Positions 13,024 through 40,351 of a DNA stretch of 40,351 nucleotides are shown here, one piece after another. The notes under the pieces were generated by a model. The model saw only the letters and a program-made list of their open reading frames with translations, was not told the DNA's origin and did not search any database. Origin of the DNA: Nitrososphaerota archaeon (GTDB lineage: Archaea; Thermoproteota; Nitrososphaeria; Conexivisphaerales; UBA164); NCBI GenBank assembly GCA_009903795.1, contig WYER01000004.1, positions 1 through 40,351 of the forward strand, written 5' to 3'. A program made the position numbers and the translations under genes. Within the stretch, counting starts at the first letter, position 1. Each line of letters begins with the position of its first letter.

Positions 13024-13400
13024 TAAGTAATTAATTTTTATTTAAAGTGAAATATAAATTTAGTGTACAAGCTTTAACCATAGAGATTATCATATGAAAA
13101 AAGTTATAATGCTGATCTTTTATCTCTTGCTCTTAACATTTTTTCTTGTTAAGATCAGTTCTCTATTAATATATCGCTCATGTGCGCTTCCTGCTTATTC
13201 CCCGAACTTTGCTACTATCCTAATTACGTAATATGTGGTTGTTGTCTCATCTGTTTTTGCTAAAGACCACGTCCGTAAGGTCAGGGTAATTTGCCAATCA
13301 GAACATTAATTACACATTAAAATCCGAAAAATAAGCGTAAAACAATATTTTATTTTTTTATCTGATCTTGATTAGTTTGTTAAGGGTTTGTAGCTTTATT
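13024..13400. other. 377-bp gap with divergent promoter and a hairpin-rich segment
   Basis: Between the TrmB start and the tRNA-Thr gene. TATA-like AAATATAAATTTA lies near 13049-13061. Nested inverted repeats follow: CTGATCTT near 13112 pairs with AAGATCAG near 13151, and CTTAACA with TGTTAAG inside them. A small hydrophobic ORF overlaps these repeats (13094-13231). The rest (13232-13400) shows no gene. Confidence 0.5.
13094..13231 (+). CDS. Possible small membrane peptide (45 aa)
   Basis: ATG to TAA, 45 codons. Residues 4-19 (VIMLIFYLLLLTFFLV) form one membrane-length hydrophobic segment after a basic MKK start. It runs divergently from the TrmB gene, with a TATA-like box about 40 nt upstream. 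The same bases form inverted repeats, so the ORF may be chance within a structured noncoding segment. No family recognised. Confidence 0.25.
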   Translation: MKKVIMLIFYLLLLTFFLVKISSLLIYRSCALPAYSPNFATILIT

Positions 13401-24686: not shown

Positions 24687-24710
24687 CTGACCAAATTTTC
24701 ACTTGAATTG

Positions 24711-24864
24711 CTTAAGGGGTGAAAGTCCCCTTTTGTGCAGGATGAATAACTCTTATAGAAAAATTATTGTTTTATGTAAAAAAATCTCATATTGTTAGTG
24801 TCCAAGATCAAGAAGAAGCAAACATTGCTTAGAAGGAAGGCGAACACTCATGTTAAGGTTTGAT
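24711..24864 (+). mobile_element. IS200/IS605-type left end with truncated tnpB start
   Basis: Begins with hairpin AAGGGG (24714-24719) and CCCCTT (24727-24732) around a 7-nt loop. ATTGTTAGTG follows 77 bp after the hairpin start, at 24791. From the TTG at 24793 a 23-codon frame contains KKKQTLLRRKA. The element at 39.94 kb has the matching hairpin region and ATTGTTAGTG 74 bp later, followed by KRKQTLLRRKS. The frame ends in TGA within about 70 bp and no further TnpB sequence follows. A truncated relic placed just after nop10. Confidence 0.6.
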
Positions 24865-35013: not shown

Positions 35014-36069
35014 TTATGAAAGGTAATCGAGAAGACTTCCTTCTTTCTTTTCAAAACGGGAAACCTTAACAGCGACCCTCCTGATCTTTTTCCCTCCAGA
35101 GACAGCTTCTATAGATCTGAGGAGCTCTAAAGCTGAAGAAAGCAGCTCTTCAAATGAGCTAACATGATACTTAAAAGTTTTTGACCTTGTCCTCGCAGTA
35201 AGGTCATCAAAGACTACTATTACGCCAACTTCTCTGAAAGATTTACCTCCAAGCCTTTCGTAAAGCTTTCTCGCAGCTTCAGCAAGGGCTTCTTCTGGAG
35301 TCTTTCCCTTAAGGGAAACGAACTTTTCGAACTCTTTCCTTTTCCTTTCAAGCTCGAGCTTTCTTTCATCTATGCCTCTCAGAAAGTTGTATATCATGAT
35401 GCCTTTCTTTTCTCCGAAGAGCTTTATCAGGTCTTCTACCCTAAGCCTCCTTGCCTCGATTATAGTTTTTATGCCAAGGGAGCCAAGCTTTTCTGCAGTC
35501 TTGCGACCGATGTAGGGAATCTCTTCCAGCTTTGAAGACTCAAGAAAGGAATCAACCTCTTCAGGAGCAACTACCATAAGACCATCTGGTTTGGCTTTAT
35601 CGGAAGCCATCTTGGCAATTAGTTTGTTGGGGCCTATTCCCACAGTGCACTTTATTCCTCCCGCCTCCTTTACTATCTGTTTAATTCTGATCCCTGCCGT
35701 TTCAGCTTCTGCTTTACCCAGCTCGCCTAAATCAATATAAGCTTCGTCTATGCTTGCCTGCTCAACAGCCCTGAACTCTTCCCTTAGCTTGTTCATTATT
35801 GAACTGCTTACCTGTTGGTAATGAGATATATCGACAGGAAGGATGACGATATCAGGCGCTAAAGATTTTGCCTTTGAAACTGACATGCCAGATTTTATGC
35901 CGAACTTCCTGGCAACATAGTTTGCAGAAGCAACAGCGCCTGAACCCTCGCCTGTAAGCATGCAGACCGCTATCGGCCTGCCTCTATATTCAGGATGCCT
36001 TAGCTCTTCACACTGAGCGTAAAAGTAATCAAAATCGACAAGAGCTATAGCCTTGAACCTTTCAGCCAA
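35014..36069 (-). CDS. dinB: Y-family DNA polymerase IV (Dpo4/Dbh-like)
   Basis: Translesion polymerase, 351 residues. Catalytic carboxylates are in VDFDYFYAQCEE (Asp12, Asp14) and QASIDEAYID (Asp108, Glu109). Palm, fingers, thumb (GIGPNKLIAKMASD, PYIGRKTAEKLGSLGI helix-hairpin-helix) and little-finger domains are all in order. The C-terminal EGSLLDYLS may be a degenerate PCNA box. The TTG start lies about 25 nt after TTTTTATAC on the minus strand, a leaderless promoter. Confidence 0.95.
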   Translation of the reverse strand: MAERFKAIALVDFDYFYAQCEELRHPEYRGRPIAVCMLTGEGSGAVASANYVARKFGIKSGMSVSKAKSLAPDIVILPVDISHYQQVSSSIMNKLREEFRAVEQASIDEAYIDLGELGKAEAETAGIRIKQIVKEAGGIKCTVGIGPNKLIAKMASDKAKPDGLMVVAPEEVDSFLESSKLEEIPYIGRKTAEKLGSLGIKTIIEARRLRVEDLIKLFGEKKGIMIYNFLRGIDERKLELERKRKEFEKFVSLKGKTPEEALAEAARKLYERLGGKSFREVGVIVVFDDLTARTRSKTFKYHVSSFEELLSSALELLRSIEAVSGGKKIRRVAVKVSRFEKKEGSLLDYLS

Positions 36070-36487: not shown

Positions 36488-36970
36488 TCAAACCTGAGAG
36501 GCACTTTTGAGCTTTCTTTTTACTTTACCACCACATACTGGACACACTTCAAGCCTTATTTTATAGACCCGACCGCAGGAAGCGCACCTGTAAACCCAAG
36601 TGTACTTTTTCTTTATACTTTTAACTTTAACACCCTCAAAATTTATTCCAATGTTGCTGAGCACGTTTTGAAGCTCATAGTCATCAGTGTAAACTATAGA
36701 ATCATTGCCAAGCTTTTTCACGAGTGCAATAATAGAGATATCAGCTTCTGAGAGCTTTTCAGAATTGTTGATTTCTTTTCTTTCTTTTTTTATTTCTTCC
36801 TCACTTATTTCTATTACTTTAAGCTTCCCAGATCTGATAAAGCTGTTAACTATCTCCCTCTCTACAGGAGATTTTACCTCATCGAGAACGTTATATGTTG
36901 TGTAAAAAGTCTCGCCATTTATTATTGTTATCCTGAAAAGGCCTGCTGCGTCTAAAACCCTTTTTACCAT
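36488..36970 (-). CDS. nob1: Endoribonuclease Nob1 (PIN domain plus zinc ribbon)
   Basis: Cuts the 3' end of pre-16S rRNA in small-subunit maturation. 160 residues. The PIN domain opens with VLDAAGLFR (first acidic Asp), has KLSEADISIIALVKKLG and VYTDDYELQNVL (the other acidic residues). A zinc ribbon then closes the protein: YRCASCGRVYKI and EVCPVCGGKV. This order and length match archaeal Nob1. The neighbouring gap to the right is full of element debris. It is transcribed in the same direction as dinB but has its own upstream region. Confidence 0.9.
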   Translation of the reverse strand: MVKRVLDAAGLFRITIINGETFYTTYNVLDEVKSPVEREIVNSFIRSGKLKVIEISEEEIKKERKEINNSEKLSEADISIIALVKKLGNDSIVYTDDYELQNVLSNIGINFEGVKVKSIKKKYTWVYRCASCGRVYKIRLEVCPVCGGKVKRKLKSASQV

Positions 36971-37402
36971 TGATAAAAATTCTATTCATGATGTTCAAAA
37001 ATGCTGCGCTTTTTTTAAACGATAATAAAGGTAAACTATGCTCTTATAGAGGACTTTGAAGTTTTCAGTTGACTTAAGATGTAGCTTCAGCAATCGTAAT
37101 ATTGAAGGAGGGGCTTTCCCTATGGAACGTAGGGGAGACGCCGGGGGTGAAAACGCCTCTGTGATTGTGGAATACTTTTCAAGTATTCCACACGTAAGCG
37201 TATCGATGAACCGGGAAAACCCAACCGCGAGGGCGTGGTAGTTTACCGCTCTTGACATCTGATTTTTGGGATTTCAAATCCTCGTGCCGGCACCTTAACT
37301 ACATTTGCTAATAATTTCGGACATTTTTCTGGATAAGAATAACTACCAAAAGAGTAAGGATTTGCTAACAATAATTACTATAAATCATGTATGTTTAAGC
37401 TT
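36971..37402. other. 432-bp gap: TnpB 3'-end relic and tRNA-like fragment
   Basis: Between nob1 and the two-TM gene. From 37031 the plus strand carries a decayed TnpB 3' end, a perfect 12-bp hairpin (37166-37192), and an element-end-like sequence up to about 37247. A 22-base tRNA 3'-end-like fragment follows at 37273-37294. The last 100 bp show nothing recognisable. Confidence 0.6.
37031..37247 (+). mobile_element. Decayed IS200/IS605 element, 3' end of tnpB and right end
   Basis: Frame 37056-37241 reads CSFSNRNIEGGAFPMERRGD, then GENASVIVEYFS, and ends TARAW just before TAG. The N-x-x-IxxGG-x-PMERR pattern resembles the region after the zinc finger in TnpB proteins. The DNA just past the stop (GGTAGTTTACC) resembles the right-end hairpin of these elements. 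The hairpin at 37166-37192 falls in the tnpB 3' part from which the omega RNA guide is made. No start and no RuvC motif, so it is a relic. Confidence 0.5.
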
Positions 37403-37951
37403 TTATATTTCTCCGAAACGATACTTATGTGTCTCTATCTTACTCCTTAAATTGTCAACCAACATTTTAGTCTCAAAGCTTATACTTTCCTCCTCCATAG
37501 CCTCCTCAGCCCTTGCCAGATACTCCTTAGCCCTCAAGTAGAGCTCTTTGTTATCATAAGCTACAGCGTTTTGCAAATACATCATGCCTAGCATGGCCAA
37601 CTGCTTAATATATTCCTCACCCTTAACAAACTTGAGATTAGCCTCAAAGCTCCTTATATATTTTTCATCGATAGGCTGCCCACTATCTGTTAAGATTGTA
37701 ATTGTGATTGATCTCCTTTTCATGAAGGGAGTGATAAGATTGCGACTCTGAAGATATTTCCTAAAGTATATTCCTGTGATTATAAATACTACTATTGGAA
37801 TTATCGTACTCAGGGTATTAGCTAAAGTTACATTGTACAATAAATAGTAAGGGATCGAAAAAGACACTACAACAGCTATGGCTGTAGGGAAACCTATAAA
37901 CAGCAATGCTAAACCAAGCCATTTCAAAAAAGATAACTTCTTTCCCTCCAT
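37403..37951 (-). CDS. Two-TM protein with helical cytoplasmic domain
   Basis: 182 residues, function unknown. Two membrane segments at about 11-33 (LGLALLFIGFPTAIAVVVSFSI, partly) and 42-61 (LANTLSTIIPIVVFIITGIY) precede a soluble domain. That domain has helical repeats (EEYIKQLAMLGMMYLQNAVAYDN and ELYLRAKEYLARAEEAMEEE) resembling a short TPR-like pair. A TATA-like TTATAAATAAATTT lies about 25 nt before the ATG on the minus strand. Flanked by gaps of 400-500 bp on both sides, so it is monocistronic. Confidence 0.6.
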   Translation of the reverse strand: MEGKKLSFLKWLGLALLFIGFPTAIAVVVSFSIPYYLLYNVTLANTLSTIIPIVVFIITGIYFRKYLQSRNLITPFMKRRSITITILTDSGQPIDEKYIRSFEANLKFVKGEEYIKQLAMLGMMYLQNAVAYDNKELYLRAKEYLARAEEAMEEESISFETKMLVDNLRSKIETHKYRFGEI

Positions 37952-39889: not shown

Positions 39890-39942
39890 GTTTTTTGAGT
39901 TTATAGCTTCTAACTAATAACTCTTTTTATTTTTAACGTATC

Positions 39943-40351
39943 GGGGTTAAGGAGCAAAATCCCCTTCGGTGAGCTTTAGATAGCCCCTTACAACAGGTTT
40001 TTATATAAAGAGAAAATATTACATTGTTAGTGCCAACTTAGAGAAGAATGCCAAGCTCAGGGAGAAGAGGAAGCAAACCTTGCTTAGGAGAAAGTCTCAA
40101 GAAGCAAAAACTTTTGAGCTGAAATTTGAAAAAGCAAGATCTCCAAAGCCAAGCTTGCTATCCTTAACCGACTCTTTCTTGAAGCTAAATGGTTTACTAA
40201 TTACATCATAGCAAACGGAATACTTTAAATCACATGCGGACTACAAGGTAAAAACGGTTCCTGTCAAGGTAGGCAATACGTTTTAGGAAAGAGAAAATCA
40301 AGTGCTTTCATCTCAGATGAAATAAGCCCTGATAAAAAGGCTTCAGGACAA
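39943..40351 (+). pseudogene. Decayed tnpB with left end (continues past window)
   Basis: The left end has AAGGAGCAAAATCCCCTT, matching the hairpin at 24.71 kb, and ATTGTTAGTG 74 bp later. The coding part then shifts between frames. Frame pieces read LREKRKQTLLRRKS, then KTFELKFEKA, then KLAILNRLFLEAKWFTNYI, then KTVPVKVGNTF, a stop, VLSSQMK, a stop, and ALIKRLQD. These match the conserved N-terminus of archaeal TnpB (LNRLFLEAKWFYNYI and LSSQMKQ blocks). At least two frame changes and in-frame stops make it a pseudogene. It runs out of the window at 40351. Confidence 0.85.

Follow-up and report, generated by a model that had tools for sequence, protein, structure and literature searches.

A perfect 12-bp hairpin in a decayed IS200/IS605-type right end, one of about 45 right ends in an archaeal genome

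The hairpin described here lies in the window, the whole 40,351-bp stretch of DNA that was analysed, between two genes that are both located on the minus strand. The left neighbour encodes a protein with a PIN domain and a zinc ribbon and is probably nob1, the domains being taken from Pfam. No tnpB adjoining the hairpin was found by Pfam. For the DinB-type protein at 35014-36069, the nearest named relatives were Conexivisphaerales archaeon 4229S_bin6 (78%) and Thaumarchaeota archaeon UBA160 (75%). The following features are referred to below.

36488-36970, minus strand: gene for a protein with a PIN domain and a zinc ribbon (Pfam PIN_6, E 1.1e-8), not tnpB
37078-37246, plus strand: what is left of an IS200/IS605-type element, comprising the tnpB 3' part and the right end, from homology and the covariance model
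37118-37134, plus strand: stem H1, 5 bp (37118-37122 with 37130-37134), intact, from covariation
about 37143, plus strand: 1-nt deletion, a frameshift in the former tnpB, placed at column 33 of alignment A1 against the two closest long copies
37166-37192, plus strand: H2, the 12-bp hairpin of the first-pass annotation, with its loop at 37178-37180, inside the former codons VEYFSSIPH
37219-37238, plus strand: site of H3, the right-end hairpin, which is broken in the window copy, from the model pairs
37237-37246, plus strand: terminal motif of the right end, GGTAGTTTAC (consensus GGTAGTTCAC), from the aligned ends of 45 copies
37247-37266, plus strand: flanking DNA at the omegaRNA/reRNA guide position, placed from the end of homology
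37403-37951, minus strand: open reading frame without a Pfam match, the right neighbour

The remnant starts at 37078 and lies upstream of nob1, at a distance of about 110 bp. We considered conservation at this locus and rejected it, since no homologous right end was present upstream of nob1 in genomes G003 and G004 and the open reading frame at 37403-37951 had no match in the four other genomes searched.

The perfect 12-bp hairpin reported by the first-pass annotation was confirmed, with TGTGGAATACTT (37166-37177) being fully complementary to AAGTATTCCACA (37181-37192) around a 3-nt loop. Nowhere else in the 40,351 bp of the window is there a perfect hairpin whose arms have 12 or more nucleotides and whose loop measures 3-8 nt, and in 40 dinucleotide shuffles the average number of such hairpins was 0.025. 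The perfect arms show a genuine hairpin, and the lack of a second one in the window and the low shuffle average make a chance origin unlikely. Its core of 6 pairs is common to other copies of the family, and the two outermost of the 12 pairs are hardly seen outside the window copy. Because H2 overlaps the old codons VEYFSSIPH, coding constraint while the gene was still alive can explain part of its conservation. The stretch 37031-37320 has a folding energy somewhat below that of shuffled sequences (z -2.33, with 5 of 200 shuffles as low). Rfam gave no family at gathering score there. An RNase P RNA, suspected from a GC-rich fold, was discarded on this ground and because the RNase P RNA of the genome sits elsewhere. 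A tRNA fragment downstream was discarded as well, as ARAGORN gave only a tRNA-Thr at 13400.

A BLAST search with 37031-37320 found seven places in the own genome including the query itself, the other six at 74-91% identity, and matches in 4 of 100 other genomes, of which the one in G052 is a match of 21 nt located past the right end. The stretch 37078-37246 shared 85-91% identity over 155-173 nt with three further genomic sites, of which two are tnpB 3' ends. Two of the own-genome BLAST places were 3' ends of tnpB genes with a PF07282 domain, both frameshifted. The window copy begins within the zinc-finger region of the former TnpB protein, and its coding match is split across two frames (37072-37155 and 37140-37235) owing to the 1-nt deletion near 37143. 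From the homology, the start inside the zinc-finger region and the split frames, we conclude that 37078-37246 combines the end of a defunct tnpB with an IS200/IS605-type right end. The interval 37031-37247, which had been given as a TnpB right end, thus holds a tnpB 3' part and a right end, but the element-derived part is restricted to 37078-37246, and the first 47 bases of the wider interval matched no other copy. The description of a decayed gene was correct, given that the tnpB body is gone and the remainder is broken by a 1-bp frameshift. The same is true of the proposed position at the site where omegaRNA arises, as the window copy combines a tnpB 3' part with a right end as in known systems (PMC8612924).

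Covariance model R1 rests on 13 right ends including the window copy. It matched 45 places in the own genome (G000, 1.36 Mb), 39 in G001, 14 in G003, 6 in G004 and none in G002. The match to the window copy spans 37111-37246 and reached 137.7 bits, the second-best score among the 45 own-genome copies, a value favoured by the presence of the window copy among the 13 sequences used for building. Alignment A1 excluded the BLAST right ends that were truncated or failed the end pattern (L011, L014 and L016) as well as weak matches in L001 and L006, the latter falling past the right end. Most right ends terminate in a GTAGTTYAC-like motif, and the terminal motif had 40 genome matches against 14 for the reversed pattern.

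No intact cognate tnpB was found beside any of the 45 own-genome copies, and the longest open frame of the cognate tnpB group in this genome was 216 aa. The assembly, 92% complete and in 33 contigs, may however not include an existing intact tnpB or tnpA of this group. Matches to tnpB upstream of and near the right end were seen for 18 of the 45 copies, a loose figure because the 38 open reading frames used for this count were picked by length or cysteine pattern and some may not be TnpB. Among the 23 PF07282 matches in the own genome are intact TnpBs from two other groups, whose right ends differ from those of the family and are of the GGGGAGGATGTCAG or GGGGAGGAGGTCAG types. A Y1 transposase was not found in the own genome and was found in 9 of the 21 genomes searched, including G003 of the same genus. 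In G016, a genome of the same order, a longer and apparently open relative of the lost TnpB was present (frame of 412 aa, 58% identity over the compared part), and an R1 match overlaps its 3' end.

The fold of the family was assessed from two sets of sequences. In the 13-sequence alignment, which was made without structure, the proportion of paired cells was 92.3% for H1, 71.9% for H2 (all 12 pairs) and about 65% for H3. The covariation score and the double-change count exceeded all 500 shuffles, but two of the five measures did not stand out from the shuffles (pairs with a double change, 83/500; pair types, 349/500). Among the 45 own-genome copies, all five measures were above all 500 shuffles and all slid versions, with 85 cells changed on both sides compared to 47.9 in shuffles and 14-32 in slid versions, where the pair counts lean towards the model structure because the copies were aligned to it, and related copies are not independent. 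Changes on both sides of H1 affected 3 of its 5 pairs among the 13 sequences and all 5 among the 45 copies. Since the stems covary across copies, the family most likely had a structured RNA here of the omegaRNA/reRNA kind, in agreement with what is described for such RNAs (PMC8612924, PMC12558985).

The covariance comparison of right ends, proposed in the first-pass annotation as a check, therefore favoured a structured RNA through compensatory changes at the family level only, and gave a different outcome for the hairpin itself, as H2 was at least half gapped in 19/45 copies. Stems with no more than one pair missing were counted in 24 of the 45 copies for H1, 16 for H2 and 14 for H3, and all three were near-intact together in 3 copies. 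With 16 near-intact and 19 half-gapped or worse cases, H2 is among the more easily lost parts of the family. In the window copy, H1 retains 5/5 pairs and the H2 core 6/6. H3 retains 3 of 6 model core pairs, or 4 of 8 when the outer positions are counted, and so the right-end hairpin expected beside the guide of an omegaRNA/reRNA is broken. The presumed guide at 37247-37266 matched nothing but itself when the genome was searched at up to 3 mismatches. As a separate observation, seven short copies (L140, L143, L144, L147, L148, L153 and L159) carry nearly the same deletion removing H2, which suggests a sub-lineage that spread without it.

Left ends were searched with a profile that was iterated once. 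With it, 24/45 copies at E<=1e-4 and 28/45 at E<0.05 proved to have a same-strand left end ahead of their right end. Of the 24, 22 had it within about 650 bp, and two were full-length copies of ~1.35 kb that are broken. The short copies are non-autonomous elements that fit the description of PATEs (PMC3119063). In 18 of 22 aligned copies, TTTAA is found next to the left end, compared to 6.5% of 26-nt background windows, and it is presumably the target motif. An empty insertion site was seen for none of the copies. Two further left ends of the family occur in the window on the plus strand. At 39927-40351, a strong one (79.9 bits) is followed by a broken tnpB 5' part reaching the contig end, and the one at 24691-24805 (51.5 bits) has no nearby right end found in the window and is directly preceded by a GGTAGTTCAT motif resembling the end of another copy.

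With a probability of about 0.85, we consider the window copy to be a dead right-end fragment of an IS200/IS605-type element whose tnpB was cut to its last codons. In the living lineage, a structured guide RNA (omegaRNA/reRNA) would have arisen from the tnpB 3' end and the right end, with its last ~16-20 nt drawn from flanking DNA, and a Y1 transposase would have acted on the end hairpins. The 12-bp stem would be inherited from the family fold, being only slightly longer than that of its relatives, and would need no present function. We infer that the element family once made a guide RNA and that the window copy is now inactive; production of a working guide RNA from it has most likely ceased. 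It looks like one of dozens of relics at differing stages of decay, with one key hairpin lost. The idea that a perfect stem means a retained RNA was hence not supported, considering the broken H3 (3/6 pairs), the frequent loss of H2, the scarcity of copies with three near-intact stems, the lack of an intact tnpB of this group and a guide that matches only itself. Two perfect stems out of three and the second-best score also fit a recent insertion or a retained RNA. The somewhat low folding energy of 37031-37320 and the incompleteness of the assembly likewise weigh against the preferred reading.

The mode of arrival could have been different. A complete PATE-like element with both ends may have inserted upstream of nob1 and its left end may have decayed past recognition, in which case the element would be equally dead. 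Such an event is favoured by the family, in which at least 22 of the 45 right ends are accompanied on the same strand by a left end no more than about 650 bp away, and by a TTTAAAC followed by AATAAAGG at about 37012-37030, which by eye is like the starts of left ends. The window copy is also too short to code for a transposase, as PATEs are. Of the two ends with near-terminal palindromes that PATEs possess, however, the left one was not found, since the profile reported no match at 36971-37078, where shuffles of the stretch reach 1.6 bits. In earlier pairwise comparisons, most left-end scores at the window copy stayed within those of 100 shuffles each, and one with a segment of L035 on the opposite strand reached 33 against a shuffle maximum of 29; the later profile search also covered this stretch and supported no left end. 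We therefore regard insertion as a complete element as unlikely, though worth keeping in mind. Very unlikely, in our view, is a stand-alone guide RNA, which after loss of the protein part would continue to be transcribed from the right end and would load a TnpB supplied in trans. It would be in line with the intact H1 and H2, the family-wide covariation of H1 and the intact TnpBs of other groups in the own genome, but these TnpBs carry right ends of the GGGGAGGATGTCAG or GGGGAGGAGGTCAG types, H3 is broken, the presumed guide has no second genome match and nob1 of G003 and G004 lacks such an upstream element. An even more remote version treats the scattered right ends as a reservoir of trans-acting guide RNAs, in which short elements lost tnpB, retained the fold of the guide RNA and borrow TnpB from another source, with the window copy as one living member. 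Finally, the position between two genes might suggest a transcription terminator or another signal of a flanking gene, unlinked to a mobile element. This is hardly credible, as both flanking genes are on the minus strand, no T-run follows the hairpin and the stem is part of a 138-position model with 45 genome matches.

The preferred reading of a dead right-end fragment can be compared with several known systems. The reRNA/omegaRNA of the IS200/IS605 element ISDra2 overlaps the tnpB 3' end and the right end (PMC8612924), and the window copy likewise ends at the element boundary with flanking DNA at the guide position; unlike ISDra2, its tnpB is reduced to its end, its right-end hairpin is broken and its RNA is hypothetical. 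The PATEs of Haloquadratum walsbyi share the mostly broken parent transposase genes (PMC3119063) but belong to another archaeal lineage, are likened here by description, and differ from the window copy, which has no recognisable left end. A PATE-like element of Halanaerobium hydrogeniformans combines a 28-nt left end with the final 58 nt of tnpB and a right end that is complete (PMC7290912). By this description, its anatomy is nearly identical to that of the short copies, whereas it is bacterial and single-copy, in contrast to the archaeal family. The omegaRNAs/sotRNAs of Halobacterium salinarum are archaeal RNAs from the tnpB 3' end with a right-end hairpin (PMC12558985) and are expressed from tnpB loci, while the RNA of the family described here is predicted from sequence.

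Taken by itself, the hairpin spot is ordinary. As a set, about 45 right ends that outlasted every findable intact tnpB illustrate the extent to which non-autonomous IS605 derivatives can build up in a small archaeal genome, and they are numerous enough for the structure of a vanished guide RNA to be read from them. Any that still had a transcript would be a natural guide acting in trans. Some minor observations concern related elements. The intact or long TnpBs of the two other groups at L033-L036 and L037-L040, with right ends GGGGAGGATGTCAG and GGGGAGGAGGTCAG, are apparently the live TnpB population of the own genome. G009, from a relative in the same taxonomic family, contains 39 matches to the lost TnpB, many of them broken, and is a possible place for a living copy of the element. 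On the minus strand of L035, at about 405-457, a fusion of left end and right end of ~50 nt was found, resembling the 52-bp terminal-only PATE of Haloquadratum (PMC3119063).
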